Shown here piece by piece: positions 98 to 29,918 of a stretch of 64,000 nucleotides of DNA. This DNA comes from Multifurca ochricompacta. Taxonomy: Eukaryota; Basidiomycota; Agaricomycetes; Russulales; Russulaceae. Made by a program: the position numbers and the translations under genes. The stretch covers positions 100,636-164,635 of the forward strand of contig WTXG01000070.1 in the NCBI GenBank assembly GCA_022496185.1. Direction: 5' to 3'. Under the pieces are notes generated by a model. The model ran no database searches, had not been told where the DNA came from, and saw only the letters and a program-made list of their open reading frames with translations. Positions within the stretch are counted from its first letter, which is position 1; the number at the start of each line of letters is the position of its first letter.

Positions 98-676
98 TGT
101 TACGTCCGGTGCGAGACGTTCTGCACGACTTGTGCAACAGCGTCGTACGTGTGTTCAGGTAAGAGGTCAATAAGGCCTCTTGGAGTTTTAAGATGAATGA
201 GTCAAAGTCAACAGGGCTGCTCCCGAGTGACAATGTTGAGCGGAAGGTGCCAAAAGCACTGAGACGGTCGAGTCAAAGGTTTCAAGGGGAAGTCCAGAAG
301 ACGAACACCGATGTATTCAATAAGTCGAGTCTGAGGTCTACAAGGTAGTTACAGTGGACTTATATACGTAATCGAATGGGCGTCTATAGATAAGATAACG
401 GAGTCAAGTGGGCCCGAATATACAAAAGTGGAGGGCGTAAAGCCTGGCTTCTGATAGGGGATTAAGTAAGTGTCCGGTCGTAGAGATAAGGGATAAGATA
501 AGAGTCCAAACACGAGTACAGTAACACAAACATAGACAAAGGCAATCACGGGGAAGGGAGCAGGGCACGTGAGGGATCCCACGATGGAGACGTGATCTGA
601 TAATGCAAAGTAGGCGGCAAGGAGGGGTCGTTGTTAGGTAGGAGAAAGAAAGTCGGAAGAGACGGGGTTCGTAACA
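98..676 (-). repeat. 3' LTR of gypsy-1
   Basis: Starts TGTTACG and ends CGTAACA on the plus strand. It matches 6976-7555 closely along its whole length with scattered, mostly transition, differences. The high similarity suggests a fairly young insertion. It contains an open frame of 77 codons present in both LTRs, which I treat as chance. Confidence 0.92.
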
Positions 677-690
677 TCACCCCCTCTTCT
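677..690 (-). other. Polypurine tract of gypsy-1
   Basis: Read on the minus strand this is AGAAGAGGGGGTGA, directly upstream of the 3' LTR. That is the expected place of the primer for plus-strand DNA synthesis. It supports the minus-strand orientation of the element. Confidence 0.7.
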
Positions 691-707
691 GGTTCTAGCA
701 GACCCGG

Positions 708-1544
708 CTAGAAACGACTCATACCATCATCATCCTGTATCAACTCCAAGTAATCGTCGGCTACATTACGGTCATCCATCGTATAATTTTCCTTGTCCGA
801 GTCCTGCGGACATTGGTGGGTACGAAGGAACCCATACGGACCGCGCTGACCACACAGGCGGCACATGTCGTAGATCGGGCAGTCCAACTCGCGGTGCCCT
901 GAGTTATGGCGGAGGCACTTGCCGCACCATCCTGACGGATTGACAATTGTCGGGGCAACTCCTACACGGCGGAAGATGCAGAACCAGCTCCAATGGAGGT
1001 TGCTGCGACAGTGCCGACACCATTTGCGGTTCAGGGGGCAGTTCCAGCTGATGTGATACTTGCTGTCACATCGCCAGCACGTCTCTCCACGAGGGTTCTC
1101 ATGCATGCGCGGCATCTCGAACCGGTTTGGCAGCAACACAGGAGCGGCCCCCAATGATCGTGGGGGTAGGGGTCGAGCATATGTATCGGCGTACCTCTCG
1201 GCAATCGTCTGGTAGGCGTCTCCTTTCTCCAGCCTCTTCCTGATCTCCACCAACTCCTGTTCCACCTGGAACATCCCGTTCGTCAGCCTTGCCATCATCT
1301 TCGCATGCTCTTTATACTGTCTGTTAAGCGTTGTGCGCAATGTCAAGTTCTTCTGCAGTCTCATCACCTCGGCTTTGAGACGCGGAAGGCGCATGTCGTT
1401 GAGCACTTCATCGATGGCAAAGGCGCGGGAGTCTTCGGCAGCCAGATGTCCAAGCTGCTCGTCAGTCATGGTGTGGTGAAGATGTCCTGTATACCTTTCT
1501 TCTAAATAGACTGGGGCTCCATAGACAGGGCCATCTTTCTTCAT
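708..1544 (-). CDS. Accessory zinc-knuckle protein encoded at the 3' end of gypsy-1
   Basis: A 278-codon intact frame lies between the chromodomain frame and the 3' LTR, in the place where some retroelements carry an extra gene. Residues about 45-120 look like an amphipathic coiled coil, rich in Leu, Glu, Arg and Lys. The second half carries four compact Cys/His clusters, starting near CWRCDSKYH, WCRHCRSN, WCGKCLRHN and MCRLCGQRG. These resemble zinc knuckles or small treble-clef motifs and imply nucleic-acid binding. The last ~35 residues are acidic. The frame overlaps the end of the chromodomain frame (1462-2307) by about 80 bases. It is one of the few undamaged frames of the element. I do not recognise a named family. 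A second Gag-like nucleocapsid or an RNA chaperone is possible. Confidence 0.6.
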   Translation of the reverse strand: MKKDGPVYGAPVYLEERYTGHLHHTMTDEQLGHLAAEDSRAFAIDEVLNDMRLPRLKAEVMRLQKNLTLRTTLNRQYKEHAKMMARLTNGMFQVEQELVEIRKRLEKGDAYQTIAERYADTYARPLPPRSLGAAPVLLPNRFEMPRMHENPRGETCWRCDSKYHISWNCPLNRKWCRHCRSNLHWSWFCIFRRVGVAPTIVNPSGWCGKCLRHNSGHRELDCPIYDMCRLCGQRGPYGFLRTHQCPQDSDKENYTMDDRNVADDYLELIQDDDGMSRF

Positions 1545-2307
1545 ACACCCGCGACATCCATTCCTCCATTGGTGTAAAATATGTACTTGGCGATGGCGAC
1601 AGTCCCGTCAGCCATGGTGATCTCGAGGGGAAGTAGGTCGAAGAATTGGGGTTGTTAGCAAAGAAGGGGAATTCCGGCACCTCATCATCCAGCTCCATGC
1701 CGAGCAGGTCATTTGGGTGTGGCTCTTCGCTGTGCTTGAAATCGTCATTTGGGTTGGGGGACTGGTTTTTGACTCGGGCCTCAGCAGCTTCGTAGTCGAT
1801 TGGGGAGGAGGGACGTGTGGAGGGATGAGCAGAAGGGAAGTTCTCAACCACTGCAGTGGTGGCGGTGAAGGCATCGATGGCAGCGTTGGCAGCGATAAAA
1901 GACATGATAGATTGGATAGTGTTAGAACGTTGCTGGGGGAGCATGTACTGAAGAAATGGATGGGGCTCCGGGGCGTTTCTTTTAAACATTTCTAGGCGCT
2001 TCTGGGTGCCGAATGTGGAACTCCGAGATAAGGGTGGAGCAGAGATATCCCTGGCGGGTTCCCACGAATTGTCAGAGTCTGGGAATCCCTTCCACTTGAT
2101 CAGGTAATGTAGTTTGCGCCCTCGGCCTTGTCGCTTGGAGTCTAAAACGCGCTCCACTTCCCATTCTTCTTCACCATCGATAAGGTCAGGCGGGGGTCTC
2201 GGGAAGTTCTCTCCATGAATGGAGGTTTCCTTGAAAGGGGTCAGAAGCTTGGCATGGAAGACTGGATGGATCTTCCATTTCGGCGGTAACTGCAACTTGT
2301 AAGACAC
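1462..2307 (-). CDS. gypsy-1 pol C-terminus: integrase end, chromodomain and tail
   Basis: A 281-codon frame. Residues 1-40 contain the end of the integrase (WKIHPVFHAKLLTPF), typical of gypsy elements. Next comes a chromodomain (about residues 45-95) with EEEWEVERVLDSK, the LHYLIKWKGF strand and the SWEPA end, including the aromatic residues that bind methylated histone tails. A long low-complexity acidic and proline-rich tail of about 180 residues follows. Chromodomains direct chromovirus integration to heterochromatin. The frame must originally have been continuous with the integrase; frameshifts upstream separate it. Confidence 0.85.
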   Translation of the reverse strand: MSYKLQLPPKWKIHPVFHAKLLTPFKETSIHGENFPRPPPDLIDGEEEWEVERVLDSKRQGRGRKLHYLIKWKGFPDSDNSWEPARDISAPPLSRSSTFGTQKRLEMFKRNAPEPHPFLQYMLPQQRSNTIQSIMSFIAANAAIDAFTATTAVVENFPSAHPSTRPSSPIDYEAAEARVKNQSPNPNDDFKHSEEPHPNDLLGMELDDEVPEFPFFANNPNSSTYFPSRSPWLTGLSPSPSTYFTPMEEWMSRVYEERWPCLWSPSLFRRKVYRTSSPHHD

Positions 2308-3228
2308 ATCTGACAGCTTCCTTGTGATCCGGAAGGGTCCGTGACGTCGGGGTGCTAATTTGGCCGAGGGGTGTGACGTGTGAATGTTCTACCCTCGAGC
2401 CATACCCAGTCATTGGTCTGATAAGGTGTGAATGTGCTTGGCTGTGCTGCCAGAAGCTGTTGCACCTTTACCAGATTTTCATTGGCTGATTTCCGCAGCT
2501 CCTCCCATTGGCCGATTCGTTCGGTTACTGACGGGACGTTGATAGGCTTATCTGCCCATGTGGTGCGTGGAGTCCAGCCCATGATAAGGGAGAAGGGGGT
2601 GGATTTCGTTGTTCCATTGGGCCATGAGTTGTGAGCGAATTCCGCCGTCGACAGCCATTCTGCCCAGTCGTCCTGCCTGCCGTTGCACCAAAACCGGAGA
2701 TACTGTTCTAACCATTGATTCGTCCGCTCGGACTGTCCATCTGTCTGTGGATGGTATGCCGTCGAGATGTTCTGCGTGATGTCCAGCGTCTTGCATAAGG
2801 CCCTCGCAAACGCCGATGTGAAACGGGTGTCTCGGTCAGAGATGATCTTTTAGGGAGTCCGTAGTGACGGTATACATGGTTCAGGTATAGTTTCGCCACT
2901 CCTTCGGCTGTGATAGTTTCGTTGCAGGGAATAAGAGGGCCGCTTTGGAGCAATCATGATCCGTGACTGTAAGGATAGTGTCAAAGCCTTGTGATTTGGG
3001 CAGCTTGACAATGAAGTCCATGGCGATGGTCTGGAAAGGAGTCGAGGTACTGGGAGTGATGGGGTACATTGGTGGGACTTTGGGTGCGTGTTCACCTTGT
3101 TTGCCTGACATGCTGCACACCCTTGTACGTAGCTCTCGACATCCTTTTTCATATTGGGCCACCATAGTCTCGTTTAGCCAGGGCATAGGTGTTGGCAATG
3201 CCTGGATGGCCGGCAGAGGGAAGGTCAT
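2307..3228 (-). pseudogene. gypsy-1 integrase, frameshifted
   Basis: Fragments in different minus-strand frames spell an integrase core. The zinc-binding region ends with YVQGCAACQANK. The first catalytic Asp is in AMDFIVKLPKSQGFD and the second in a SDRDTRF-like segment. The usual HPQTDGQSER-like glutamate segment and the WAEWL helix follow in other frames. At least three one-base shifts are needed to read it through, for example near 3152, 3100 and 2840. The enzyme would insert retrotransposon cDNA into the genome; this copy cannot make it. Confidence 0.8.
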
Positions 3229-3580
3229 GATGAAAATGGATCACCCCCCTCTTAATGTTGTCGCCACCGGTGACAACGAGTCGGTCCCCGTCTTTCCACC
3301 ACAGACCGTTGATCTTCTTTAGATTATGAGCATCAGCCCATGAACGGCACAGGTCTGGTTCATGTTTTGGGAGACTTGTGCCCAGAGTCCATGTCATGGA
3401 GACTGACAACGGCCGTTTGGCAAATACTTCTTCTGGGAGGACAGTGATGTTGTTATTGTCATCCTCCCCTATATGCATGTCTGGTCTGCGCGACAATGCA
3501 TCTGCTCTAGCGTTCTGACTCCCGGCAATGTGTTTCAACGTGAAATTGTATTCTTCCAATTCCAAGACCTCTCGTGCCAC
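3149..3580 (-). pseudogene. gypsy-1 RNase H end and integrase zinc-finger region
   Basis: A 143-codon frame beginning in the conserved RNase H tail (NFTLKHIAGSQNARADALSR). It continues through a linker into the HHCC zinc finger of integrase (HFHHDLPSAGHPGIANTY). It ends at a one-base deletion just before the conserved WWP motif that normally follows. The frame upstream ended at another shift near 3650. Confidence 0.8.
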
Positions 3581-3629
3581 ACGTCGACTGATCTTATGAG
3601 GTTCTTTCCAGTATAAGAGGTTAGAATGA

Positions 3630-4100
3630 TCAGTGTGGATGACGGTTTGTGGGGGTCCCAGCCAGGTAGGGTCGCCAGTGTCGCAACGCCTTGACTATGG
3701 CTAAGAGTTCCCTGTCCCAGATGTCGTAATTTCTCTCAGCAGGGGAGAAGGTTTCGGAGTAATATGCCACTGGGTGAAGCACTTGTACGGCATCTCTCTG
3801 GTATAATACTGCCCCATTCGCAAAGCGTGAGGCGTCCACCTCTACCTCGAAGGGGTGGCTCAGATCTGGTTGGATAAGTACTGGTTCCGAGCCGACGAGG
3901 TCCCTAATCTGTTCAAACGCCTGCTGTTGTGCGGCATCCCAATGCCATGGTACGTCCTTTTTCAGTAGGTCGTTCAGTGGTCGCGCTATGCCTGAAAATC
4001 CCTTGACGAATCGTCGGTAGAAGTTACAGAATCCGATGAACGATCGGACATCCTTGACGCAGGTCGGCACGGGCCACTCCCGGATCCCCTGTACCTTCAT
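3630..4100 (-). pseudogene. gypsy-1 reverse transcriptase thumb and RNase H
   Basis: A 156-codon frame with the RT connection motif (RSFIGFCNFYRRFVKGFS), the Asp-containing RNase H start (EVEVDASRFANGAVL) and the YDIWDRELLAIVKAL helix. It opens at a missing C after the preceding RT fragment (…RMDP). It closes near 3650, where the TDHSNL-like segment continues in another frame. Confidence 0.85.
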
Positions 4101-4611
4101 GGGTCCATGCGCACTTGTCCTCCTTCCAGGATGACCCCTAGATACTCAACACTCCGTTGTTCGAAAGAGCATTTGGCAGGTTTAAGGTAGAGATCATGTT
4201 CCTGCAGTACATCCAGTACCTGATGTACACGACGTCGATGGTAGTCCAAATCATCCGTGGTGGCTACTAGGATGTCGTCCATGTAGACCACTACTTCTCC
4301 CGTGAGAATGAGATCGCGGAGGATGTGGTTCATCATAGACTGAAACGTTGCCGGTGAGTTCGTGAGACCAAAAAACATAACATTGGGTTCGAACAACCCT
4401 TGATTTGTTTTGAACGCCGCCTTGCACTGATCACCTTCCTTGATTCTAACGTTATTGTAGCCCCATCGTATGTCCATCTTCGAGAAGAGGGACTTATCCC
4501 TCATAGTGTCAATGAGTTCGGAAATGAGCGGCAGGGGGTAGGCATTCTTTACAGTGTATGTGTTAATTCGCCAGTAATCCTGAACCGGTCGCAGCTTGCC
4601 GTCCTTTTTTT
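4097..4611 (-). pseudogene. gypsy-1 reverse transcriptase core
   Basis: Contains the RT palm and fingers: [36 protein letters not shown] and the catalytic [12 protein letters not shown]. The frame is open from a short A run near 4605 down to 4097. The run is one A short compared with the related element at 23580, which has the extra Lys before DGKLRP. The upstream protease/RT frame therefore stops soon after the same point. Confidence 0.88.
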
Positions 4612-5376
4612 GATGAAGAAGAAGGGCGAGGCGTACTGCGACTTGGATGGGCGAATATATCCTTTTGCCAAGTGTTCTTCAAGGAATTCTGTCAGTGCCA
4701 CCTGCTCAGACTGGGACAGCGGATAGATTTTGCAATCTATTGCTGTAGGTGTATCGGGGAGTAGGTCTATGGCGTGGTCCCATGGTCTGGAAGGTGGAAA
4801 ACGCTGGGATTCTTCTTCGGAGAACACCTTCCAATGCCTATGGTAGACACTCGGCACTATGTCGCGGTATGTTTTTTCTGTCTGCCCCTGTATTGCCTTT
4901 TGAGCTAACTCTGATGCTTTAGTGACATAACAGTGACCTGGGTCTTCCTCTCCTGTGCTTGTGGCTTTTATTGTCAGATGTCGGACTGCGTAGTCATAGC
5001 CTATGGACGTAATGATAGTGGGATATGATTCTTTGTCCATTGTCGCGTCAGCCCAGTTGATCTTGGGCTCAAACGCGGCAAGCCACGGATATCCTAAGAT
5101 GAGATCTTCGTCTCCCAAGTCTGTAATCAGGAAACGAATGTTCTTCATGGTTTCTCCAACCTGGACTTTTAGATCCGTGTAATGAGTGATCTTTCCAGCG
5201 CGATTGGCCGTTCCGTCAATGTTCCAAATGTTCTTTTCCTGGGGAAGTGCCAGCTGTCCCAGACCCATCGTCTTGATTAGTCGTGGGTGAATAAAATTGT
5301 CTGTGGCTCCGGAGTCCACTAGAATATCTCGATCGGCCGTCCTCTGTGTAGTTTCAAAATGGACTGGTATTTTCAA
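4549..5376 (-). pseudogene. gypsy-1 aspartic protease and start of RT
   Basis: A 275-codon frame. The retropepsin active site is DSGATDNFIHP (near residue 22), followed by the flap region and the ILGYPWLAAFEPKINW segment typical of gypsy proteases. After a linker comes the start of RT: YHRHWKVFSEEES, PWDHAIDLLPDTP and [20 protein letters not shown]. It then runs out of frame at an A-run deletion. It lies downstream of gag in a different frame, so expression would normally need frameshifting or a separate start. Confidence 0.87.
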
Positions 5377-5444
5377 TGATTTGAATCAACTAGCATACAC
5401 AGAGGTAACATGGAGTGCTCGCACCCAGGCCGATGGGTTTGAGC

Positions 5445-6956
5445 CTAACAAAAATCCTTCTTTGCAAACGCCTTCTCTACTAGTATAGCGCGCACTTCCT
5501 CACTCTCCTTCATCATGTTGGCCCATATGTCCTGAGCTTTTTCTTCTTTTGACCGCTTGTCCACAGCGGGGGGGTTGTTCTGGACAGGGTGTTCTGGTGC
5601 CACCGTGGCAACGGCAACTTGTGCTCCCTTCTTGGGACAATCCCGGGACATGTGTCCCAATGCTCTGCAACGGAAGCAGCGCCCTTCTTTCATTAGTGTC
5701 TGTCGCTCGTCTTCCGTAAGTGCTGCCCGAGCTCGGGCTCGATCTGCAGAGGTATCCATAGCATTTGGATCCTTCTGGCCATGTGGCGTGGGCTTTACTC
5801 CGAATGCTGCCTTCCACTGGTCTCGGGTTTTTCCCTTTTTGGTGTCAACTCCAAACCTTGTCTGGAAATCAAGGTAGTCTTGTTGCTGTCTCCGAGCAGC
5901 GTCAACCCATGTGTCCCAGTCGTGGGGGTGATGAAACTGAATAATATTCTTGACCAGGGGGTTGGGCAAACCCTGTGAAAAGAGGTCTAGCGTTGCCTCT
6001 TCATCCGTGTCATAGCCGGCCCTGTTGGCTAGACTTCTGAACTTGGCGACGTATGCATCAAGTTCTCCCTTCTCCATTCTAAGGGACTTTAATTCCCGGG
6101 CTGCCTTCTGCTTGGCCTGCCCATCCGTGAAGGCATCTTTGAACCGCTCAGCGATGGTCTCCCAAAGACCTTCACTAGTGGTACGACGTCCACTTTCGAC
6201 TTGTTCATTCAGCCATTCCAGCTGTTCCATGGTCCAGTCGTCAACCGCATCCCCCCGAATCAGGGAAAGGAACAGATTGGCTCGTTGAAATGGATTGACA
6301 ATCTGTGGGACGTCATGGTTGAAGTTTTTAAAGGTTGTGAACTCCAACATGAATTTTTTGCTTTGTGAGCGATCCCCAGTGAACGTTTGGGGAAGCACTC
6401 CTGATAATCGTCCGGACGGGGGAGGGATGTTTGGTGGTGCTGCCACTGGGGCTGGTGGGGCGGGGTCTGGAAGTTGGGCGGCAATGGTGGACATGTTTTG
6501 GTAAAACGGGGTGGCGGTGTTGGTGGATTGTATAGAGATCTGGGGAGTTGTCAAAGCAGGGGCTCTGAACGTGACAACTTCAGGTGCAACTGGGGCTGTA
6601 GACGACGCTAATACCAGTGCTTCTTCGCTAGGTTCTTCTACGTACTCCTCTGGTTCGGAGTCCGTGATAATGGCCGGAGGGTTTTCTCTCCACGGGCCTA
6701 GTCCAAATTCAGGTGGGGCAGGTCTGGTTGTAACCCAAGAGTTTCGACTGTCCGAGTATCGGATACAATACCAAACTCTTTTCTCTTCGTCGTATTCTAC
6801 CGGTTGGTATCTTCCGTCGTGATAGACGTAGTATCCAAACTCGGATTCAAAGTCCTTCCAGGCGGCAGAGCCAAGTACTTGCTGTGAAAGATTATTCTCG
6901 TCTCTGCGTTCGATGAGCTCTTCGCGGAAGAGGGTCTGACTGCGGCTGGAAGCCAC
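5445..6956 (-). CDS. gypsy-1 Gag polyprotein
   Basis: An intact 503-codon frame. The N-terminal third is Pro- and acid-rich. The Ty3-type capsid region runs through residues ~190-370, with FTGDRSQSKKFMLEF, DDWTMEQLEWL and DLFSQGLPNPLVK-like blocks. A CCHC zinc knuckle (CFRCRALGHMSRDC) near residue 430 binds RNA. It packages element RNA into cytoplasmic particles. The ATG at 6956 lies close inside the 5' LTR (6976), leaving a very short leader. It is the best preserved gene of the element. Confidence 0.9.
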   Translation of the reverse strand: MASSRSQTLFREELIERRDENNLSQQVLGSAAWKDFESEFGYYVYHDGRYQPVEYDEEKRVWYCIRYSDSRNSWVTTRPAPPEFGLGPWRENPPAIITDSEPEEYVEEPSEEALVLASSTAPVAPEVVTFRAPALTTPQISIQSTNTATPFYQNMSTIAAQLPDPAPPAPVAAPPNIPPPSGRLSGVLPQTFTGDRSQSKKFMLEFTTFKNFNHDVPQIVNPFQRANLFLSLIRGDAVDDWTMEQLEWLNEQVESGRRTTSEGLWETIAERFKDAFTDGQAKQKAARELKSLRMEKGELDAYVAKFRSLANRAGYDTDEEATLDLFSQGLPNPLVKNIIQFHHPHDWDTWVDAARRQQQDYLDFQTRFGVDTKKGKTRDQWKAAFGVKPTPHGQKDPNAMDTSADRARARAALTEDERQTLMKEGRCFRCRALGHMSRDCPKKGAQVAVATVAPEHPVQNNPPAVDKRSKEEKAQDIWANMMKESEEVRAILVEKAFAKKDFC

Positions 6957-6975
6957 TGTGAGAGACTTGACTTGA

Positions 6976-7555
6976 TGTTACGTCCGGTGTGAGACGTTCC
7001 GCACGACTTGTGCGACAGCGTTGTACGTATGTTCAGATAAGAAGTCAATAAGACCTCTTGGAGTGTTTAAGATGGATGAGTCAAAGTCAACGGGGCTGTT
7101 CCCGAGTGACAATGTTGAGCGGAAAGTGCCAAAAGCACTGAGACGGTCGAGTCAAAGGTTTCAAGGGGAAGTCCAGAAGACAAACACCGATGTATTCAAT
7201 AAGTCGAGTCTGAGGTCTACAAGGTAGCTACAGTGGACTTATATACGTAATCGAATGGGTGTCTATAGATAAGATAACGGAGTCAAGTGGGCCCGAATAT
7301 ACGAAAGCGGAGGGCGTAAAGCCTGGCTTCTGATAGGGGATTAAGTAAGTGTCCGGTCGTAAAGATAAGGGATAAGATAAGAGTCCAAACACAGGTATAG
7401 TAACACAAACATAGACAAAGGCGGTCACGGGGAAGGGAGCAGGGCACGTGAAGGATCCCACGATGGAGACGTGATCTGATAATGTAAAGTAGGTGGCAAG
7501 GAGGGGTCGTCGTTTGGTAGGAGAAAGAAAGTCGGAAGAGACGGGGTTCGTAACA
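6976..7555 (-). repeat. 5' LTR of gypsy-1
   Basis: TGTTACG...GTAACA, about 580 bp, the partner of 98-676. Its outer flank (7556 onward) is the RT/RNase H coding sequence of another gypsy element, so it sits inside or against that element. Confidence 0.92.
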
Positions 7556-11234: not shown

Positions 11235-11484
11235 TGTCTGGAGATGCTTCAGGCATCTAAGGTTCGCTTAGGCTGTAGATTAGATTAGATTAGATTCCAG
11301 AGTATCAGACTTTTTATGTTATCTTTATTACACTTTTTCTCACCTTACTCAGCTGATTAGTGATCAACTTAGTAATGCACAGTATAGCATGTGATTCTCC
11401 TTTGGCCAATGGCCTTAGTCCCTCACTGTTTATTGTCCAGCACTTGTGGACTTATTCCCAGTGTGCACAGACCATCCCTTGGGG

Positions 11485-11491
11485 TATATAA
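11485..11491 (+). promoter_or_regulatory. TATA box of LTR-S copy A
   Basis: TATATAA, conserved in all LTR-S copies in the same place about 30 bases before the duplicated block. It predicts that transcription starts at or just before that block. Confidence 0.6.
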
Positions 11492-11518
11492 GGGTGTCTG
11501 TTTTGTCTCTTTCACTTC

Positions 11519-11665
11519 AGAGTTTCTTCAACCTCTGAAGTGTAAATCCTACTATACTTTCTACTTTCCTTTGACTAATGTCTCCTGTAGATACTTGTCT
11601 TTCTAGGTCAGTAGTATAGTTAATATAGAGTTTCTTCAACCTCTGAAGTATACTTGTCTTTCTAG
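11519..11665 (+). other. Duplicated block with and without a GT-AG interval, copy A
   Basis: Block a (11519-11541, 23 nt), GT-AG interval (11542-11590), block b (11591-11606), 20-base linker (11607-11626), then a and b again joined directly (11627-11665). The 39-base second unit equals the first with the interval removed, with no mismatch. The interval starts GTAAAT, has CTAAT before the end and ends TGTAG, so it looks like a fungal intron. Confidence 0.85.
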
Positions 11666-11715
11666 CTTTACCACTACTAACCACAGTCAGTAACCAGCAG
11701 CATGATTGTTCAAAA

Positions 11716-14096: not shown

Positions 14097-14600
14097 TGTT
14101 GAACACAGGATGTGTTCAGTGATGCTTCAGGCATCAGGTGATTAGATTAGCTACTTTGTAGATTAGATTAGATACCGGAGTCTTGGACTTTTTACATTAT
14201 CATTATTATCTTTTTTCTCACATTCTGCAGTAGCTGACTGATACACCATGTAACATGTGATTCCTGTAGTAGCCAATGGCCTTATGCCCTCTTGTTTATT
14301 GTTTGGACTTTGTCCGGCACTTGTGGACTTATTCCCAGTGCACAGACCATCCCTTGAAGAGTATATAAGGGTGTCTGTTTCGTCTCTTACACTTCAGAGT
14401 TTTCTTCACCTCTGAAGTGTAAGTCCCAGTCTCTCTACTTACTACCATACCTATAACTAACTGTCTCTTGTAGAGAACTTGTTTTCTAGGTGTGTAGTAT
14501 AGTAATATAGAGTTTTCTTCACCTCTGAAGTAGAACTTGTTTTCTAGCTTAACCTGCTAACACCCACAGTCAGTATGCTGCACCTCATGCCTGTTCGACA
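14097..14600 (+). repeat. LTR-S copy B, complete solo LTR with target duplication
   Basis: 504 bp, from TGTTGAACACAGG to CTGTTCGACA, flanked by GGGGG on both sides (14092-14096 and 14601-14605) inside the gag of element X. The 5-bp duplication and TG...CA ends define this repeat as an LTR. The copy sets the true ends of the family. Confidence 0.92.
14396..14547 (+). other. Duplicated block with and without a GT-AG interval, copy B
   Basis: Block a 14396-14418, GT-AG interval 14419-14473 (GTAAGT...CTAAC...TGTAG), b 14474-14489, linker 14490-14508, fused a+b 14509-14547. Both a and b differ from copy A, yet the fused unit is identical to copy B's own a plus b. Confidence 0.85.
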
Positions 14601-14771
14601 GGGGGTTGGCTTGGAGTGCAGTATTGGTGCAGTCTCTGGCCCATTCTCCTGCTGGTGTATCAAGTTTGAAGTGGGTGAGGGCTGCAGAGACTCATCTACT
14701 TTGATCAGTGAAGGCCCCTTCATTCTGTTGAACAATCATGCTGCTGGTTACTGACTGTGGTTAGTAGTGGT

Positions 14772-16191
14772 TAGTGATTGGCAGGGGTAACCCTGGGGTA
14801 TCCTCATTGGTACCCATACCCGTACCCGTACCCATCACTATGGGTACGGGTAACCCGTGGGTCACCCGTGAAAACACATGCAAGTTTTTTACTTGCATTG
14901 CACATTTCAGATGACCGGCCTGGGCCTTCCTGGACCAAGACGATACACAACGCATTCATTTGTGGCTGCTTAAGATCCCTCAATGACTCTTGTTTTATGT
15001 TTAGAAGATTAAGATAATTTATTATTCCATTTTTATCTTATTATTCTGCTTTCAATTTTATACAAGCACAACTAAAATACAGTATACAGAGATGATTAGA
15101 TAGGATGTTATAGAACATTGATGAAAAGCCTGTCAGATAACCACACAGAATGCAAAAAAATTTGATGAACACATCGCAATTGACAGGGGTAACCCCTGGA
15201 TAATTGTTTTGATACCTGGGTTACCCATAAAATGAAACGCATGCAAGTTCTTTACTTGCATTGTGCATTTCGGACATCTGGCCTGGAACATCCTGGTCTA
15301 AGAGATATGCACTTGGACACAACGCATTCATTTATGGCTTCTTAAGATCCCTCAAAAATTCCTATTTTATGTTCATAAGATTAAGATAATTTATTATTCC
15401 ATTTTTATTTTATAATTCTGGTTTCAATTTTATACAAGCGCAACTGTTCTTTGCATTTCTGCACATTTCGGATAAATGGCCCAGGCCATCCCGGTCAGGG
15501 AGATAAGCACTTGGACACAACGCATTCATTTATGGCTACTCAAGATCCCTCAAAAATTGTTGGTTTATGTTCAGAAGATTAAATGGATCCTTTATTTACA
15601 TTACTATTTTATTATTCTGCTTTCATTTCATACAAGCGCGACTGTTTTGGCGTGTCTAAGTCAACCTTCCTTAATAGGAAGGAGGTCAGACCACCATGCG
15701 ATGCAATGTAGTTGCTGCCCCATGCAGCTTGTAGATACACGCGGGCCTTGTTTCAGTAAACTAATTTAATAATTTGATTATATTATAGTCTAAAGTAGTC
15801 TAGAGAGTATTTTAGATAGTGCCAGACTGGCAGAATTGATCGCGTGTTAATAAAACAGATGCATCATGATTTTCAAGAAGTGGATCACTGATAACACTTT
15901 TATTTTACATCGCACTGTTGATCTGCTTTGATACTTCATATGATAATACTAGAACATATTTAAAGATACCCTGTAGCATACATCAGATGAGATCTTTTAT
16001 TTTTGTGGCTGCAGATGTGTTTTATCTTAGAATTTCTACTGATCTTGTCAATGCATAATTGGCACCTATACCCGCCAAACCTGCTGCATGGGTATGGGTT
16101 TCCATGGGTTGGGAGCCATATACCCGTACCTGTACCCGGCAAAACCCGTGGCACTTACCCACATGGGTATGAAAACCCTTGACAATCACTA
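14772..16191. mobile_element. Non-autonomous hAT element, copy 1
   Basis: Termini TAGTGATTG...CAATCACTA are perfect inverted repeats. Flanks GTAGTGGT and GTAGCAGT (14764-14771, 16192-16199) are an 8-bp target duplication with two changes, as expected for hAT. The ends carry many GGTAC/GGGTA-type subterminal repeats. Inside are about three diverged units of ~200 bp (from about 14880, 15240 and 15455). No transposase is encoded. The right ~560 bp match the left end of the transposase-bearing element at 16820 in reverse. Confidence 0.88.
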
Positions 16192-16203
16192 GTAGCAGTA
16201 AAG

Positions 16204-16350
16204 CTAGAAAGACAAGTATACTTCAGAGGTTGAAGAAACTCTATATTAACTATACTACTGACCTAGAAAGACAAGTATCTACAGGAGACATTAGTCAAAG
16301 GAAAGTAGAAAGTATAGTAGGATTTACACTTCAGAGGTTGAAGAAACTCT
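16204..16350 (-). other. Duplicated block with and without a GT-AG interval, copy C
   Basis: On the minus strand: a 16328-16350, interval 16279-16327, b 16263-16278, fused a+b 16204-16242. Same sequence as copy A. Confidence 0.82.
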
Positions 16351-16649
16351 GAAGTGAAAGAGACAAAACAGACACCCTTATATACCCCAAGGGATGGTCT
16401 GTGCACACTGGGAATAAGTCCACAAGTGCTGGACAATAAACAGTGAGGGACTAAGGCCATTGGCCAAAGGAGAATCACATGCTATACTGTGCATTACTAA
16501 GTTGATCACTAATCAGCTGAGTAAGGTGAGAAAAAGTGTAATAAAGATAACATAAAAAGTCTGATACTCTGGAATCTAATCTAATCTAATCTACAGCCTA
16601 AGCGAACCTTAGATGCCTGAAGCATCTCCAGACACATCCTGTGTCAACA

Positions 16650-16819: not shown

Positions 16820-19800
16820 TAGGGATCAGCAAGGGTTTTCATACCTGTGCAGGTAAGTGCCGCAGGTTTTGACAGGTACGGGTATGGGTATACAACTCCC
16901 AACCTGCCAGAAACCCATACCCATGCAGCAGGTTTGGTGGGTATAAGTGGCCATCAGTCATTGACAAGATCAGCAGAAATTTAATGTTAAAATACATTTT
17001 TAGCAAACAAATGACAATATTTTATTTGATGTATGCTACAGGGCTTTTGTAAATATGTTCTAGTGTTATCCTATGAAATATCAAAGCAGATCAACAGTGC
17101 AATGTAAAATAAAAGTGTTATCAGTGATCCACTCTCTTGAAAATCCTGATGCAACTGTTTTATTAATGTGTGATCAATTCTGCCAGTCTGGCACTATCTA
17201 AAATACACTCTAGACTACTTTAGACTATTCTATAATCTAATTATCAAATTAGTTTACTGAAACAAGGCCTGCGTGTATCTACAGGCTGCATAGAGCAGTA
17301 ACTACATTGGACCAGCATATTGGTCTGATCTCCTTCCTATTAAGGAAGGTTGACTTAACAATTGCAGCACATCTTATTTACTAACGCGCGATCCTTTCCG
17401 CCAGTCTGGCACTGTTTATAATCCATACAAAATTATTTTAGACTACTTTATAATCAGATTATTAATTTATTTTACTCAAACAGGGCCCATGTGTATCTAT
17501 TGGTGTCCATTTCTGCATAGGGCAGTGACTATCTTGCATCACGTGGACCGGGTCAGAGCGGTCCGGACTCCCTTCTATCTAAGAAGGGTCAACTTTACAA
17601 GACACACAAGATGCACATGTTATGCAATCACGTGACACCCTCTGGGTGGCTTGCAAGCAGTCCAGGATGCCAGAAATGCGCACAATAAGATATAGTTCAG
17701 TTCTTGTGGTCAAAATGGAAGTGAACATGTACAAAGTAGCAACCTTTTATACTACATAAAAGTGTGACAATAATTACAGTAAATAGTCCTATTTGCTTGT
17801 GACAAGATGTGTTAAGGAATGTGTTGCATGTGCAATGTGGAATTGTCTCTAAATCAGTTAATGGACACACTTTAGATTATCTTATCACGATCATTAGATC
17901 AACTCCACCCAGGTGTCTGGCTGTTTAGTCCTGAACTATCAGGTCGCTACTGGCTTGTCTCAACAATTTGTGGACACTGTGTCAGTAGATAGAACAATAT
18001 AAAGTTGCAAGGACAGTCTAAAAGTAGTCTATAATGTATTCTAGAAGGTGCCAGACCATGTAAATAGACCATGCGTGATCACATATGTGTCCATAACTGA
18101 TTGTTGTCTCATTTTGCATCAGACATATTATCTGATCTGGCACTTTGTAGGATAGTAGTAATAGGCATATTATTGCTGTATAAGCAGAACTAAACATCTC
18201 TGACTACCTCAAGCCTTACACGTGCATCAACCTCCATTCTGCGCAGTTATCTTACAGGCCTTTTCATTGTCATCTACCTATAGCAACACATGGCATCTTA
18301 TCTTATATTTCCTAACTGACATCTATACTTTTTTTTCTGGGTCCAGGCGTAAAACAACCCCATTTCTCAAATTTAGACTTTTACAAACCAACATTCTCAA
18401 ATTTAGACTTTCTGAGTATATTGTTTCAAAATGTCCCCCTCCAGCTCTAGCAAAGCTGCTCCCAATTTACATCCTTCAAGCTCTCACAAACAAAAGCAGA
18501 CTACGCACGTCCTAGAGAACGCTGATCCACTGCTAACAAAGAATAAGAAAGCAAAGAAGTCACCGCATTCATTGACAAACCCAAGCCAAGCACTGCTCCC
18601 TACTAAGGATACAAGTGCTGGTAGTTTTGGAAGCCGGCAGGCCTCCAATGACATTGAAGACATTGAAGATGAAGATGATCTTGTTGAAGGCCAAATAATA
18701 GAGGCCGCTGATGGAAGCAACAATGATGACAATGATCCTAGTGGTTCTAGCATCATAGTGATTGATGATGATGAACCTGAGGAGTCTGCAGAAGATGAAC
18801 TAAGTCAGTCATTTCCTGCACAATGTCACTGTCTTTTCTAAAACATGCGTAGAGAGACTTTCAAAATATTGGAACTCACCAATCTATGCCTTTTTCAAAC
18901 CATATCCCCATGTTGATCACATTGATGGCCATTGAGCTCATGTCTTTGAGTGTAATGCAAAGCACTGCAAAGGGAAAGGTCAGCATTACTGGCACATCCA
19001 ACATTACCTGGATACAGGGGATGCCAAATCAACAAGCAACTTGAGGTGTCATGCCAAACTCTGTTGGAGCAAGGAGATTATAGAGACTGCGGACCAGAGT
19101 AAGGATGTCTGTGCTGCATGAGAGGCCATGGAAAATGCTACATTGAAAAATGGGTCAATTACTGCAATGTTTGAGAGGACTAACTTCAATAAAGTAACTT
19201 ACTCTTATTGGCAACATACCAAGACAGAATCACGGTATGTCACCACCAATAGAGAGCTGTGACCATACTGAGATTGTTCTTGACTGTGGCAGTGCGGAGA
19301 TTGTTCGATGGGTTTTGGAAAGCGTTCAACCCTTTAACATTGTCAAGGATCGGGGGTTTCAGTCACTGATGAAAACTGGGAGGCCTGAATGCTACATACC
19401 TTCACCTTTCACTGTGTCCCACAATGTCAAGAATGTCTTCGTTCGGTGTTGCCAGAGGATTGCATTGATGCTACAGGTGTGTGAATGTGACATCTATATC
19501 AGAGCTGAAATGTTGACTTATGCTTTACAGGAATATGATGGCGCCTTGAACTTTGTGACAGATGCTTGGACGTTGCCTAACCACAAGGCTTATGTTGCTG
19601 TTACAGTCCACTTTGAGCGGGATGGTGTCCTTGTTGCCATGCTTCTCAATCTCGTTGAGGTGGCCATGTCACATTCAGGATTGAACCTTGCTGCCGCATT
19701 TGCAAAGATCCTTGATGATTTTGGTATTGCTGATAAGGTCAGTATCCAAACAAGTGATGAGGAATATATAAACTTAACACATTCCCATAGATCCTAAGCA

Positions 19801-20667
19801 TCACTTGTGACAATGCAACCAATAACGACAGAATGGTTGATGAACTAAAAACCCTCCTTGCCAAATTCACTGGCCCAGCAAGTTGAACACATTGCTTTGC
19901 ACACATCATCAACCTGATTGCTAAGACTGTCATTTGACAATTTGACATTCCACAGGCACAAGATGGTGAGATCATTGACAAGGCAATGATTGCATTATGC
20001 ACACTAGCAGGAGATCTTGATGTTGAGGAAGTATTGACCCAGGCAGATGGTGGTGATGATGATGATGATGACAACAATGAAGATGGTGAAGGATGGGTGG
20101 ATGAGCGCCAAGGGATGTTGGAGCTGGAGTTGGACAATCTTGATGGTGATGTACAACCAGTGTGAACAATGTTGGTGAAGGTGCATCCAGTTGGCACTAA
20201 TGCTGTAGATCTCTGACTAAGCACCCATGCTAGATCCACAAGATAGCATTTGCGATCAAAAACTCATCAATGCTCATCCTCCCAAAATGGGTTTCCACTC
20301 TCAAAGACCTCAATCTCAGTTGTCATATGATGCCCCAGGACATGTCCACCTGATGGAACTCGACATATGACATGCTGAACTTTGCTGTGACATATTCTGA
20401 AGCACTGGACATTATCACTGGTGACCAGGAGATGAAGCTGAGGCAGTACAAGATGGATGCAAATGAATGGGAGATAGCTTGTCAGCTGTGCCAGGTTCTA
20501 AAGGTGAGTTTTCATACCTTGTTTGATTCTTTTACTCATTCTGTCCAGATCTTCAAGGATGTGACACTCTTTTTCTCCCATGATGGCATCCCAAGCATTG
20601 CAATGGTCATTCCTGCCATGGACCACATTGATGAGGTTCTTGCCACCAATGCACTCAATCTGTGATA
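16820..20667 (+). mobile_element. hAT transposon, left portion, with decayed transposase
   Basis: The left terminus (TAGGGATCAGCAAGGG) corresponds to the termini of the two non-autonomous copies. The preceding 8 bases, GTGCTATC, would be the target duplication. About 1.6 kb of non-coding sequence precedes the transposase gene. The element is cut at 20668 by the LTR of gypsy-4 and its right end is absent. The sequence before the transposase includes a palindromic TTCCTATTAAGGAA motif also found in the short copies. Confidence 0.85.
18431..20665 (+). pseudogene. hAT transposase (BED finger plus RNase H-like core), decayed
   Basis: Order: an acidic Ser-rich N-terminus (18431-18820), then a BED-type zinc finger around 18880-19080 (FECNAKHCK ... 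NLRCHAKLC). The hAT core follows, with VRWVLESVQPFNIVKDRGF, PECYIPSPFTVS, NFVTDAWTLPNHKAYVAV and a NNDRMVDEL region. After an acidic insert come ITGDQEMKLRQYKM and MVIPAMDHIDEVL. The dimerisation end is missing. There is a frameshift near 18820, at least one likely intron, and several TGA codons that fit Arg CGA codons (18936, 19119, ~19883, ~19935). Inactive. Confidence 0.85.
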
Positions 20668-21208
20668 TGTGATGGATTTTACACTGGCCAAGGCGACATG
20701 AGACTGACTGACAAAGAAACGGACTTTTATTGACACACTACATTACTGTTGCTTACTGAGGGCTCAACCCCTCCTCCTTCTCCTTGGTTCTAGCTAGTTC
20801 TACTGTGCAACCACTAGATCATACATCATAGTACTAGAACCTTCTACCCACTATGACATAGCTAAACCCACCTGTATTTAAAGAGCAGTAAAGTAGAGAG
20901 ACAGACCTAAGTCTGTTCTCTTGTGCCCAATCCAAGGTGCTTTGACTTCACTTGAACTCCCTCTGTAAGAACCCCACTTGAACTCTCCAAGACGCGACTT
21001 GGAGAGCCTTCGACCCTCTTGAACTTGTTGCAGGACTGAGTGTCTCTGCCGTCGACCTCGACTCTCGCGCGTGCCCTAGCGACTCTGTCGTGGGCTTGAA
21101 CCGACTTGACTCTAAAGGCTTGGAGTCTTGACTTGAACTTGATACCTCTTGACTTGGGAGACTAGCTCCTGCTCGACGATCGACACAGTGCCGCACCTAA
21201 CTGTGACA
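20668..21208 (+). repeat. 5' LTR of gypsy-4
   Basis: TGTGATGG...CTGTGACA, 541 bp. Nearly the same as the 3' LTR over the first ~450 bases, including TATTTAAAG ahead of AGTAAAGTAGAGAGACAGAC. It then diverges until the last ~15 bases. Confidence 0.9.
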
Positions 21209-21654
21209 TTAGAACAGACTTAATCGAACTTAGGACACTAGAACTCACCGAACGCACAAGGCGACGACGACGCGTCCCTTGCCCTGACACCCGAACCCGA
21301 ACCCCGACCACAGAACTGACAAACGACCCCCGAAGCTGCTTGACTATCAACGCGATCAGTAATATCCATAAATGAACACTCGAAACACTCACCTGAATTG
21401 CAAGGAGACGACACCGCGTCCCTTGCCCAAATCCCAACAGCACGACGTCTTACTCAGCGCATGACCCCCGATCCCCAACATCCGAAGAAGCGTCTCTTGA
21501 AGACAACTCCCCACTCCGATATCTGACAGACGAGTTAGAACCGCAAACGCATGGCAACTTACCTATTGACTTCCATAACCGCTTTGCTCTTCTTGCGGCA
21601 GCAGACAGCCCCACCCCGAATGACGAAAACACAGAAGTACCAACACCACACACA

Positions 21655-22827
21655 ATGACGACTAGACTGAACACCAGGCAGGCACGAAGGGCCGCGGAGG
21701 AGGACATCGTGGAGTCGCAGACCAGTCGACCCAAACGAAGCCCCAAAGATAGGCCAATTACCAGAATGACAGGAAGAAACCCTGATGAACCACCGCAAGG
21801 ACCCCCCGCTCCAGGAGGAGGGGCAACGTATTCGGGAGGGCCCATGATGGGCGTACCACCACCCTTCTTCGATGGAGACCGAGACATCGCGATGGATTGG
21901 CTCGCCAAACTAGAACTATTCTTCAGCCTCAATGAAACAGTAGCCATGGTTCAGAACGAAAGAACGAGAGTTGCGTTCACACTAGGACTGCTACGAGGAC
22001 CCCAAGTAGACCGATGGGTGATAGACCAGATCAAATGGTTGACCGACATCAAAGAGGGAAACATCCGAGTCCCATACATTTGGGACAAATTTAGACAAAT
22101 ATTCCGAGATGCATGGGCCGACGTGGCAGCTGGACAGAAAGTGCTGCGAGCATTAGATTGCTTACAAATGAGAGATTCCAATATCGACGAATACATCGCC
22201 GAGTTTCGCACGCTGGCTACAAGGGCCGAACTCCATATTGATGACCCAGCCGCTTGGCAATTCTTTCACCGAGGCCTCCCCACGCGATTGGTTCAGACTA
22301 TGCTCCTATTTGACCAACCTAAGACATTTGATGAAGCAGCAGCCTCGGCCAGGAAACACCATGCAAACTGGTTGTATAGCAAAGACGCCCTTGGCACTCG
22401 GTTGACAACAAACACGCCACCCCGAGGCAACAAATTTACATTTTATAAGAAACGCAAGTCGGACCCACACTCACAAGGAGCCGATGTCATCAAAAAGGCA
22501 GTTACAACAGAAGAGAAAGAGCAATATAGGAAGGATGGCCGATGCTTTGAGTGTGGGCGCTGAGGACATCTCATCAGGGACTGCCCGAATAAGAAGCCGT
22601 GCATTAATACCAATACCAGCGCCAGTAGCCCGGCTCAGACCGCCACGATCACAGAAGTCCCTTCGACAACTACAACGGCACCTACTAAAGCTCACACACA
22701 GAAACTGGTAGAGACGACCGAGATAGACGTCGACGCGCTCGCCAACGCTCTTCGATCCATGAACGACGATCAATGCCTCGCCCTTCAGAGTAAATTCAAA
22801 GGGGATGAGGATTTTTATATCGCTTGA
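21655..22827 (+). pseudogene. gypsy-4 Gag with an internal stop
   Basis: 302 codons to a TGA at 22561, then 88 more in frame to 22827. The capsid region holds FFDGDRDIAMDWLAKLELFF and YIAEFRTLATRA. The stop falls inside the CCHC zinc knuckle: CFECGR-stop-GHLIRDC. CGA to TGA at that codon would explain it. The reading before and after is undamaged, so the gene is otherwise fresh. Confidence 0.88.
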
Positions 22828-22889
22828 ATGATGCGGCCTTCATTTGAGCGTTAATCTCACACCATGTATTTAGATCACCTATTAGAGCA

Positions 22890-25800: not shown

Positions 25801-26119
25801 GTCCCTGCCTTCCCACATGAATATCCATGATGTGTTTCATATTGATCTTCTATCTCCCTATCTCGAAACTGTTGCACATGGCCCCAATTACCTCAGGCCC
25901 CCACCAGAGCTTGTTAATCAGGAAGAAGAATATGAAGTGGCAGCTATCCTTAATCACCGGCTCCACGGGCGTTCTAAGAAGCTCCAATTTCTGGTCAGCT
26001 GGGTCGGCTATCCTGCCAGTGAGAACTCTTGGGTTGATAGCTCTGACTGTCATGCCCCTGCACTGATCAAACAATACTATGATTCTCTTCCCAGGCGTCA
26101 GGGACAACGCCTCCCTTAA
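22890..26119 (+). pseudogene. gypsy-4 Pol: protease, RT, RNase H, integrase, chromodomain
   Basis: Protease DSGATENFI near 22950 and the LGYPWFAANNPHIDW block. RT with [10 protein letters not shown] and VYMDDILIHT. RNase H with GTDASGYAVGATL, YDRELFAIM and TDHNNLQYF. Integrase zinc finger from HYHDHVLTGHPGI to GCATCQENK. Catalytic segments AMDLITDLPP and SDQDPRFTS, then a glutamate in SSER. A chromodomain (EEEYEVAAILNH ... WVGYPASENSW) closes it. In-frame TGA codons lie near 23037, 24803, 25361 and 25438. A one-base deletion in a C run near 24156 shifts the frame. Gag and Pol are in different frames. Confidence 0.9.
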
Positions 26120-26180
26120 GAAGGGGGTGACTACATGTTTTCCCACCTCCTTTCCCCCACACACACTTCTTCCTCTTATC

Positions 26181-27354: not shown

Positions 27355-27376
27355 GCTTGGGGACAAGCTGAACTGT

Positions 27377-27389
27377 ACAAGGGGAGTGA
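27377..27389 (+). other. Polypurine tract of gypsy-4
   Basis: ACAAGGGGAGTGA sits directly before the 3' LTR, as expected for the plus-strand primer. Confidence 0.65.
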
Positions 27390-27953
27390 TGTGACGGATT
27401 TTACACTGGCCAAGGTGACATGAGACTGACTGACAAGGAAACGGACTTTTATTGACACACTACTTTACTGTTGCTTACTGAGGGCTCAACCCCTCCTCCT
27501 TCTCCATGGTTCTAGCTAGTTCTACTGCGCAACCACTAGATCATACATCATAGTACTAGAACCTTCTACCCACTATGACATAGCTAAACCCACCTGTATT
27601 TAAAGTACAGTAAAGTAGAGAGACAGACCTAAGTCTGTTCTCTTGTGCCCAATCCCAGGTGCTTTGACTTCACCTGAACTCTCTCTGTAAGAACTCCACT
27701 TGAACTCTCCAAGACGCGACTTGGAGAGCCTTCGACCCTCTTGAACTTGTTGCAGGACTGAGTGTCTCTGCCGTCGACCTCGACTCTCGCGCGTGCCCTA
27801 TCGACTCTGTTGTGGGCTTGAACCGACTTGACTCCAAAGGCTTGGGGTCTTGACTTGGACTTGATACACCTTGACCCTTCGTGGCCTCGAGACTTGACTG
27901 AAGTTGCTTCCTCTTGATCGACCTCGACACAGTTCTCGCACCTAACTGTGACA
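27390..27953 (+). repeat. 3' LTR of gypsy-4
   Basis: TGTGACGG...CTGTGACA, 564 bp. See the 5' LTR for the difference near its end. Directly followed by LTR-S copy D. Confidence 0.9.
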
Positions 27954-28302
27954 ACATGTGATTTCTGTACTGGCCAATGGCCTTTCTCCCTCATGTTTAT
28001 TGTTTGGACTTTGTCCGGCACTTGAGGACTTATTCCCAGTGCACAGACCATCCCTTGGATAGTATATAAGGGTGTCTGTTTTGTCTCTTACACTTCAGAG
28101 TTTCTTCAACCTCTGAAGTGTAAGTCCCTTCTCTTACTTACTATCATACCTTGAGACTAACGCTCTGTGTAGTAACTTGTCTTTGTCTAGGTCAGTAGTA
28201 TAGTATAACAGAGTTTCTTCAACCTCTGAAGTTAACTTGTCTTTGTCTAGCTTAACTCGCTAACCTCTACAGTCAGTATGCTGCGCACATGCCTGTTTCA
28301 CA
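27954..28302 (+). repeat. LTR-S copy D, 5'-truncated
   Basis: Begins inside the LTR (ACATGTGATTTCTG) because the gypsy-4 LTR abuts. It has the TATA box (near 28069) and the duplicated block, and ends CTGTTTCACA. A 28-base spacer follows, then copy E in the opposite direction. Confidence 0.85.
28097..28250 (+). other. Duplicated block with and without a GT-AG interval, copy D
   Basis: a 28097-28119, interval 28120-28172 (GTAAGT...CTAAC...TGTAG), b 28173-28190 (18 nt here), linker 28191-28209, fused a+b 28210-28250. Block b differs in length and sequence from copies A and B, and the fused unit carries the same difference. Confidence 0.85.
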
Positions 28303-28383: not shown

Positions 28384-29918
28384 CTAGACAAAGAAAGTTA
28401 CTTCAGAGGTTAGAAGAACTCTATATTAACTATACTACTGACCTAGACAAAGAAAGTTCTACATAAGAACATTAGTCTAATAGTAAAGTAGATAGTAAAG
28501 AGAAACTTACACTTAGTGATTGGCAGGGGTAACCCTGGGGTATCCTCGTTGGTACCCGTACCCGTACCCATACCCGTCACTACGGGTACAGGTAACCCAT
28601 GGGTTACCCATGGGTCACCCGTGAAAATGCGTGCAAGTTCTTTACTTGCATCGCGCATTTCAGATAACCGGCCTGGGCCTTCCTGGACCAAGAAGATACA
28701 CAACGCGTTCATTTGTGGCTGCTTAAGATCCCTCAATGACTCTTGTTTTATGTTTAGAAGATTAAGATAATTAATTATTCCATTTTTATTTTATTATTCT
28801 GCTTTCAATTTTATACAAGCACAACTAAAATCCAGTATACAGCAATGATTAGATAGGATGTTATAGAACATTGATGAAAAGCCTGTCAGATAATTACACA
28901 GAATGCAAAAAAAATTGATGAACACATAGAAATTGGTAGGGGTAACACCTGGATAATTGTTTTGATACCTGGGTTACCCATAAAATGAAATGCGTGCAAG
29001 TTCTTTACTTGCATCGTGCATTTCGGAGATCCAGCCCGGGAGATCCCAGTCAAGGAGATATGCACTTGGACACAACGCGTTCATTTATGGCTACTCAAGA
29101 TCCCTCAAAGATTCCTATTTTATGTTCATAAGATTAAGATAATTTATTATTCCATTTTTATTTTATTATTCTGGTTTCAATTTTATACAAGTGTGACTGT
29201 TCTTTGCATTTCTGCGCATTTCGGGTAAATGGCCCGGGCCATCCCGGTCAAGGAGATAAGCACTTGGACACAACACGTTCATTTATGGCTACTCAAGATT
29301 CCTCAAAAATTGTTGGTTTATGTTCAGAAGATTAAATGGATCCTTTATTTACATTATTATTTTATTATTCTGGTTTCATTTCATACAAGCGCGACTGTCC
29401 TAGTCCCTGGATGCACATTTCTGCGCATTTAAGTCAACCTTCCTTAATAGGAAGGAGGTCAGACCACCATGTGATGCAATGTAGTCGCTGCCCCATGCAG
29501 CTTGTAGACACACGCGGGCCTTGTTTCAATAAAGTAATTTGATAATTAAATTATAGAATAGTCTATATTAGTCTAGAGTGTATTTTAGATAGTGCCAGAC
29601 CGGCAGAATTGGTTGCACATTAATAAAACAGATGTATCATGGTTTTCAAGAAAGTGGATCACTGATAAGGATTTTATTTTACATCGCACTGTTAATCTGC
29701 TTTGATATTTTGTAGGATAATACTAGAACATATTTAACGCCACCCTGTAGCATACATCAGACGAGATCTTGTATTTTTGTGACTGCAGATGTGTTTTATC
29801 TCGGAAATTCTACTGATCTTATCAATGCATAATCGGCGCCTATACCCGCCAAACCCACTGCGCAGGTATGAAACCCCTTGACAATCACTACTTACACTTC
29901 AGAGGTTAGAAGAACTCT
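28384..29918 (-). other. Duplicated block with and without a GT-AG interval, copy E
   Basis: On the minus strand: a 29896-29918, interval 28459-28510 (starts GTAAGT, CTAAT near the end), b 28443-28458, fused a+b 28384-28422. The hAT insertion and its duplication sit at the a/interval boundary. The fused unit is identical to this copy's own a plus b, which again differ from the other copies. Confidence 0.82.
28514..29890. mobile_element. Non-autonomous hAT element, copy 2
   Basis: 1377 bp, termini TAGTGATTG and CAATCACTA, with a perfect 8-bp target duplication CTTACACT (28506-28513 and 29891-29898). Same layout as copy 1: subterminal GGGTA/GTACCC repeats, three ~200-bp internal units (from about 28636, 29000 and 29205) and a right part matching the transposase-bearing hAT. 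Confidence 0.93.

Follow-up and report, generated by a model that had tools for sequence, protein, structure and literature searches.

Retroelements are expected to lose introns from their transcribed ends. An LTR in which an intron-like interval and its spliced form lie side by side is found in a 64,000-nt stretch of DNA from the basidiomycete Multifurca ochricompacta (contig WTXG01000070.1, positions 100,636 to 164,635; hereafter the window), where a block a, an interval beginning with GT and ending with AG, and a block b are followed, beyond a short gap, by a and b fused with the interval missing to the base. How does the second block come to match the first, and how are both kept through reverse transcription? 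The answer that we regard as likely is that the fused block is rewritten during replication from the strong-stop cDNA of a doubly spliced 5' leader, while a predicted hairpin formed with U3 would keep the 3' LTR unspliced. The family would thus appear to give the spliced leader a landing site of its own.

The window contains five copies of this LTR, termed A to E (Table 1). All five had been reported to carry the pattern in an earlier sequence-only reading, and for A, B and D it proved exact when checked base by base. The two minus-strand copies, C and E, also show it, but C is the inverted twin of A (11235-11679 versus 16190-16634, 100% complementary over 445 nt, 4.5 kb apart) and, being identical, provides no independent case; E was compared by eye, with b, gap and fused block in agreement. 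A 270-nt stretch around copy D is identical to a further genomic copy, L077. Intron 1 of copy E holds an insertion (~28514-29890) with terminal inverted repeats TAGTGATTG...CAATCACTA and the 8-bp AGTGTAAG on both sides, which is hAT-like by eye and has relatives at ~14771-16190 and 16910-17314. Other features of the window include two more elements (187-7365 and 20667-27688), whose near-identical direct terminal repeats (97% and 96%) lie 6.9 and 6.7 kb apart and whose gag/pol-like ORFs appear gypsy-type by eye, a 700-aa ankyrin-repeat ORF of ~15 units of 99 nt (32379-34481, minus strand), and a host gene for dihydrouridine synthase. Among the 120 matches listed of 588 for the latter, the top identity belongs to a protein named from Lactarius tabidus (81% identity, 79% query coverage), and the named matches among these 120 are from Agaricomycetes.

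Table 1. Features of the five LTR copies in window coordinates, with the evidence or remark for each.
Feature	Position	Strand	Evidence or remark
Copy A, TATA box TATATAAG	11485..11492	+	sequence; block a begins 34 nt past its first T
Copy A, predicted hairpin, left arm (final 10 nt of U3 with first 4 nt of a)	11509..11522	+	arms, accessibility
Copy A, block a, predicted leader exon 1	11519..11541	+	start coincides with start of fused copy; transcription predicted to begin at first base of a
Copy A, predicted hairpin, right arm (end of a with intron-1 donor)	11533..11546	+	arms, accessibility
Copy A, predicted intron 1, GTAAAT...CTAAT...TAG	11542..11590	+	base-by-base check, splice motifs
Copy A, block b, predicted leader exon 2	11591..11606	+	base-by-base check
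Copy A, predicted intron 2, gap (GTCAGT...) and fused block (...TAG)	11607..11665	+	family splice motifs
Copy A, fused a-b, predicted landing site of strong-stop cDNA in 3' LTR RNA	11627..11665	+	exactly a+b
Copy B, whole LTR (L039), solo, TGTTGAACACAG...ACA	14097..14600	+	GGGGG on each side; converted to window coordinates
Copy B, block a	14396..14418	+	base-by-base check
Copy B, predicted intron 1	14419..14473	+	base-by-base check
Copy B, block b	14474..14489	+	base-by-base check
Copy B, predicted intron 2, GTGTGT...TAG	14490..14547	+	contains fused block 14509-14547
Copy C, block a	16328..16350	-	inverted twin of A
Copy C, fused block	16204..16242	-	sequence check
Copy D, block a	28097..28119	+	base-by-base check
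Copy D, predicted intron 1	28120..28172	+	base-by-base check
Copy D, block b	28173..28190	+	base-by-base check
Copy D, predicted intron 2	28191..28250	+	contains fused block 28210-28250
Copy E, fused block	28384..28422	-	own a at 29896-29918; TIR insertion in intron 1 parts a from b

The LTR belongs to a large Ty1/copia retrotransposon family, as indicated by its reverse transcriptase, gag, LTR pairs and target duplications. The promoter pattern TATATAAG...CTCTT has 1,620 matches (up to 3 mismatches; reversed control, 0) in the assembly holding the window (53.8 Mb, 605 contigs). The LTRs are ~500 bp long, end in TGTTGAACACAG...ACA and are accompanied by 5-bp target duplications, with matching 5-bp flanks in 7 of the 15 TG...CA pairs examined. 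A conserved GGTTATGGGCCCTG, the primer binding site (PBS), lies 3' of the 5' LTRs, and AGGGA precedes the 3' LTRs. The assignment to Ty1/copia follows from an RVT_2 piece (L068:3-389; PF07727, E 1.3e-20) upstream of an AGGGA-preceded LTR, and from a copia-type gag ORF (PF14223, E 2.3e-8) after the 5' LTR of L042, which is itself followed by the PBS. A longer RVT_2 ORF at L068 (E 4.7e-62) sits in the flank 3' of the LTR and is probably part of another copy. As to the half-tRNA(iMet) primer of Ty1/copia elements, we take the PBS to resemble the complement of an initiator tRNA anticodon arm, but three pattern searches for an initiator anticodon arm matching it gave 0 matches. Scans of viral contigs with the LTR pattern and the reverse transcriptase of the L068 flank ORF as query returned no relatives.

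The relationship between split and fused blocks was examined in 142 unique LTR copies, drawn from 8 loci of one ranking, 30 of another set, 90 of 100 listed promoter-pattern places, 2 intronless loci and the window, with copies identical over 270 nt dropped. Of these, 126 were assayable. The remaining 16 comprise 10 without a matching second a (L035 and L092, where the second a has indels, and 8 interrupted or cut by foreign sequence), four intronless copies (L030, L087+, L129 and L130), L076, which ends inside a, and L128, which has an extra unspliced unit. Some measurements refer to an earlier set of 121 copies, from which six short or discordant copies had been dropped.

The copy-by-copy comparison proposed in the sequence-only reading was run on the 126 copies, which hold 64 (a,b) variants (18 of a, 45 of b). 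The fused block equals the copy's own a+b in 117 when b is stopped at the first mismatch past 14 bases, and in 115 when b is read to the donor, L019 and L021 differing at the last base of b. By the stricter rule 11 copies are discordant, or 13 with L035 and L092, which differ by indels. When fused blocks were shuffled among copies (2,000 shuffles), the mean number of matches was 4.3 and the maximum 12, bearing out the claim that the variants differ and that each fused unit fits its own a and b. In the 121-copy set, every polymorphic column of a and b has its counterpart in the fused block, a single-copy column being the one exception, and two further changes are confined to the fused block. 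In 51 pairs of nearest neighbours whose U3 differs by less than 5% but whose a/b variants are not the same, the fused block of each copy follows its own a and b (b over the matched part only); the exceptions, L048 and L080, involve a single base each and are both in the discordant list. A second set, consisting of listed pattern matches with no promoter filter and partly overlapping the main sample, gave matching block a at 41 of 41 loci (10 variants; shuffled mean 7.0, maximum 16). The exact match between split and fused blocks is thus real, general and beyond chance. The blocks are short and the loop sequence is of low complexity, which would favour ordinary tandem duplication, an artefact of assembly or an intron-like appearance arising by chance; these permutations, the exact GT...AG edges, and the 1,424 and 1,108 genome matches to a+GTAAGT and gap+a, compared with 0 for the reversed controls, contradict such explanations and leave them hardly any credence.

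The extent of divergence indicates how often the match is renewed. Comparison of the split with the fused block within each copy shows 13 differences in 4,915 sites (15 counting L019 and L021), or ~0.3%, compared with 15.9% of sites between blocks of different copies. The 5' and 3' LTRs of the same element differ at 34 of 5,354 sites (0.64%) over 11 element pairs, 7 of them with matching 5-bp flanks; this sum omits four of the 15 pairs, three with gaps of at least 88 columns and one with LTRs 21 kb apart and different flanks. Because the within-copy difference does not exceed the divergence accumulated by LTRs after insertion, recopying has been frequent, and the fused block is plausibly recopied in every cycle.

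The sequence-only reading had argued that direct repeats have no pairing constraint, so that covariation implies recopying from spliced RNA. The premise needs some qualification, as a-b cDNA would pair with the fused block, and first-strand transfer relies on such pairing. Selection alone could then be invoked, with mismatched elements dying and no routine recopying taking place. This is very improbable, in that 13 discordant copies exist, each of the 64 variants would need matched double changes, and the landing block is replaced by cDNA in the transfer. Because first-strand transfer would overwrite the fused block with cDNA, recopying follows even with a pairing constraint, and the conclusion outlives the argument: copying of the second block from spliced RNA stands, with two amendments, as the best account of an exact, intron-free and variant-wise match.

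Recombination has probably also acted on these LTRs. L032 and L033 (G000:C7, ~20.5 and 26.5 kb) are the LTRs of one element, with matching 5-bp flanks CAATT and identical U3, and are unlike in intron 1 and U5 as well as in b and the fused block, the latter two having changed together. This difference looks like the conversion of part of one LTR, and is not expected from replication alone. L005 and L125, for example, are less than 2% different in U3, yet have clearly distinct a/b variants, a pattern that suggests that U3 and the leader blocks often recombine.

The conversion-like exchange in L032/L033 lends some plausibility to a different scheme, in which transcription starts from the fused block as an ordinary R, and gene conversion, or spliced RNA captured from time to time, maintains the likeness of the split copy upstream. 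The position of the promoter argues against it, the first T of the TATA box lying 34 nt from the start of the first block a in 126 of 126 copies. Furthermore, DNA conversion would not omit the intron to the base across dozens of variants, and the within-copy divergence is more than 50-fold below that between copies. A start at the fused block is accordingly an improbable explanation, and a start at the first base of block a is taken as likely below.

The interval between a and b fits the spliceosomal GT...branch...AG pattern, judged from its motifs. As had been reported from the window, it carries a donor, a branch site and a terminal TAG, here found as GTAAGT in 123 of 126 copies, CTRAY in 121 of 121 and TAG in 123 of 126; its length, previously given as 49-55, extends to 49-56 over the sample. 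The unit formed by the gap and fused block looks like a second intron, which the sequence-only reading had missed. In 123 of 126 copies the homology after b stops at GTCAGT, GTGTGT or GTTAGT, and the TAG that ends the fused block is followed by C in 121 of 126. The unit is 56-61 nt long, with GTNNGT and TAG each in 119 of 121 copies; donor positions 1, 2, 5 and 6 are invariant in 119 of 121, while positions 3-4 are variable (CA or GT). A YTRAY branch motif occurs in 56 of 121 copies, the weak point of this assignment. Variation among the first 8 bases of the gap is concentrated at positions 3-4 (CA or GT), whereas the last few, next to the fused block, differ between copies in both length and sequence (TAAT, AATAT, AATAC, TGTAT and others). 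The variation at the gap/fused junction might reflect imprecise landing or scatter of the start site.

With splicing of intron 1 alone, a cDNA of the form a-b-gap-a-b-U5 would land on the fused block, and each cycle would add an extra gap+fused unit; with removal of intron 2 as well, the cycle would close. A scheme limited to splicing of intron 1, with landing of the cDNA on the fused block and loss of the extra unit in each round by slippage or recombination, has the merit that the signals of intron 1 are far stronger and that no second intron with a weak branch site is required. It predicts arrays, or an a-b followed by the gap, whereas this product has 0 matches in the genome (pattern sensitivity 78 of 121), none of the 126 copies has the gap sequence after its fused block, and the homology stops at a GTNNGT donor as described above. 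We therefore consider splicing of intron 1 alone unlikely, and prefer the removal of both introns.

The possible replication products are defined by the state of the donor RNA (unspliced, or with intron 1, intron 2 or both out) and the landing site (first or fused a), and were sought in the genome using patterns whose sensitivity on the 121-copy set was 112 for a+GTAAGT, 96 for gap+a, 71 for U3-a-b-U5 and 94 for the unspliced unit. The standard LTR corresponds to both introns out and landing on the fused a, and accounts for the a+GTAAGT and gap+a matches counted above. Loss of both introns with landing on the first a gives U3-a-b-U5, with 29 matches. L129 and L130 are LTRs of this form spaced by ~6 kb, with the PBS after the first, and were probably carried through replication in that form, while deletion from one a block to the other may account for part of the single cases. 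Exactly one copy, L128, carries a whole unspliced unit at the fused site, as would result from the landing of an unspliced RNA there. For the intron-2-only product, the genome pattern search found none on the fused a but L128, and the pattern for landing on the first a is uninformative (28 matches, compared with 20 for the reversed control). At C14:35972-36009 (G000), a match resembling the end of intron 1, b and U5 lies just after an a+donor match at C14:35909, with no fused match listed nearby; C14:35909-36009 may be a candidate intron-2-only product.

The split and fused blocks with their tracking, the splice signals, the boundaries, the TATA spacing and the product counts are read directly from sequence. 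These observations can be assembled into a replication cycle, for which we infer the start site, both splices, the landing on the fused block and the poly(A) site from the DNA sequence. Transcription would start at the first base of a, and polyadenylation would take place downstream of the fused block, so that the 5' R would be encoded by split DNA and the 3' R by fused DNA. At the 5' end, intron 1 and intron 2 (the gap and the old fused block) would be removed to give the leader a-b-U5. The minus-strand strong-stop cDNA of this leader would anneal to the contiguous a-b in the unspliced 3' LTR RNA, and would be extended across the gap, b, intron 1, a and U3 to yield U3-a-intron-b-gap-[a-b]-U5 again, with the introns kept and a single fused copy renewed from the 5' exons.

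This cycle requires the 3' LTR to escape splicing, and the left arm, contributed by U3, of a predicted hairpin that the sequence-only reading had likewise missed would cover the intron-1 donor there. In 116 of 126 copies the end of a and the intron-1 donor (CTCTGAAGTGTAAG) form the reverse complement, N aside, of the last 10 nt of U3 together with AGAG (mostly CTTNCACTTCAGAG), and the hairpin loop is the variable part of a. In an RNA starting at AGAG, U3 is transcribed at the 3' end only, so the hairpin is predicted to form there only, hiding the intron-1 donor in the 3' LTR alone. A first, cruder measure of accessibility, the mean unpaired probability, separated the contexts weakly (86 of 121), with real U3 below shuffled U3 in 73 of 121, and was replaced by opening energy. 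The predicted cost of opening the intron-1 donor (25 C) is 12.9 kcal/mol with U3, 4.5 without it and 5.05 with shuffled U3, and in this folding prediction it is greater with U3 in 126 of 126 copies, which are related and hence give non-independent counts. Opening of the intron-1 acceptor costs 4.2 with U3 compared with 4.0 without (greater in 77 of 126), and that of the intron-2 donor 8.1 in the unspliced 3' context compared with 4.1 (harder in 105 of 121). The arms are nearly invariant, too constant for a covariation test, and their conservation could instead reflect promoter sequence.

Taken as a whole, we lean towards regarding the family as a case of terminal redundancy made by splicing, in which the 5' R consists of two mini-exons, the 3' R is a cDNA fossil inside intron 2 renewed each cycle, the U3 hairpin acts as an end sensor, introns are kept through reverse transcription, and the sequence of a processed RNA is written back into the LTR as a rule. 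If this is correct, the DNA that encodes one R of an LTR element does not have to be that encoding the other, and splicing can belong to the replication cycle. Each copy would also record its own RNA processing, making splicing and start site readable from DNA alone, and the hairpin would provide a natural position switch for splice-site use.

A search of the open-licence literature, covering titles and the starts of abstracts, found no description of an LTR holding introns plus their spliced copy. One candidate precedent (PMC5542766) was rejected, as the intron mentioned in the part consulted lies in the leader of a vector named LTR1.20, and the consulted part of another article (PMC12789967) provides background only. 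In foamy viruses, according to the sections consulted of PMC3694450, the major splice donor lies within R and is open at the 5' LTR but presumably hidden by structure at the 3' LTR. The present family is alike in having a putative splice donor within the LTR, and folding predicts a comparable hiding at the 3' LTR in the 126 of 126 copies noted above. The foamy virus donor serves mRNA splicing and poly(A) control, and those sections of PMC3694450 make no mention of a fused copy of a spliced leader. With Ty1/copia elements (Pseudoviridae) the family has in common RVT_2, copia-type gag, TG...CA LTRs of ~500 bp, 5-bp duplications and the PBS. By contrast, the textbook R of Ty1/copia is collinear and identical at the two RNA ends, whereas here two mini-exons are predicted at the 5' end and their fused copy at the 3' end. 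Copies of Penelope-like elements keep introns, and are not known to use LTR strand transfer or to carry a fused spliced block; these elements have a different reverse transcriptase family, the enzyme here being RVT_2 and not of the Penelope type. In intron-bearing retrotransposon reporters, loss of the intron marks passage through RNA, whereas in the present family the intron stays and its spliced form is placed next to it, naturally and in each sampled lineage.
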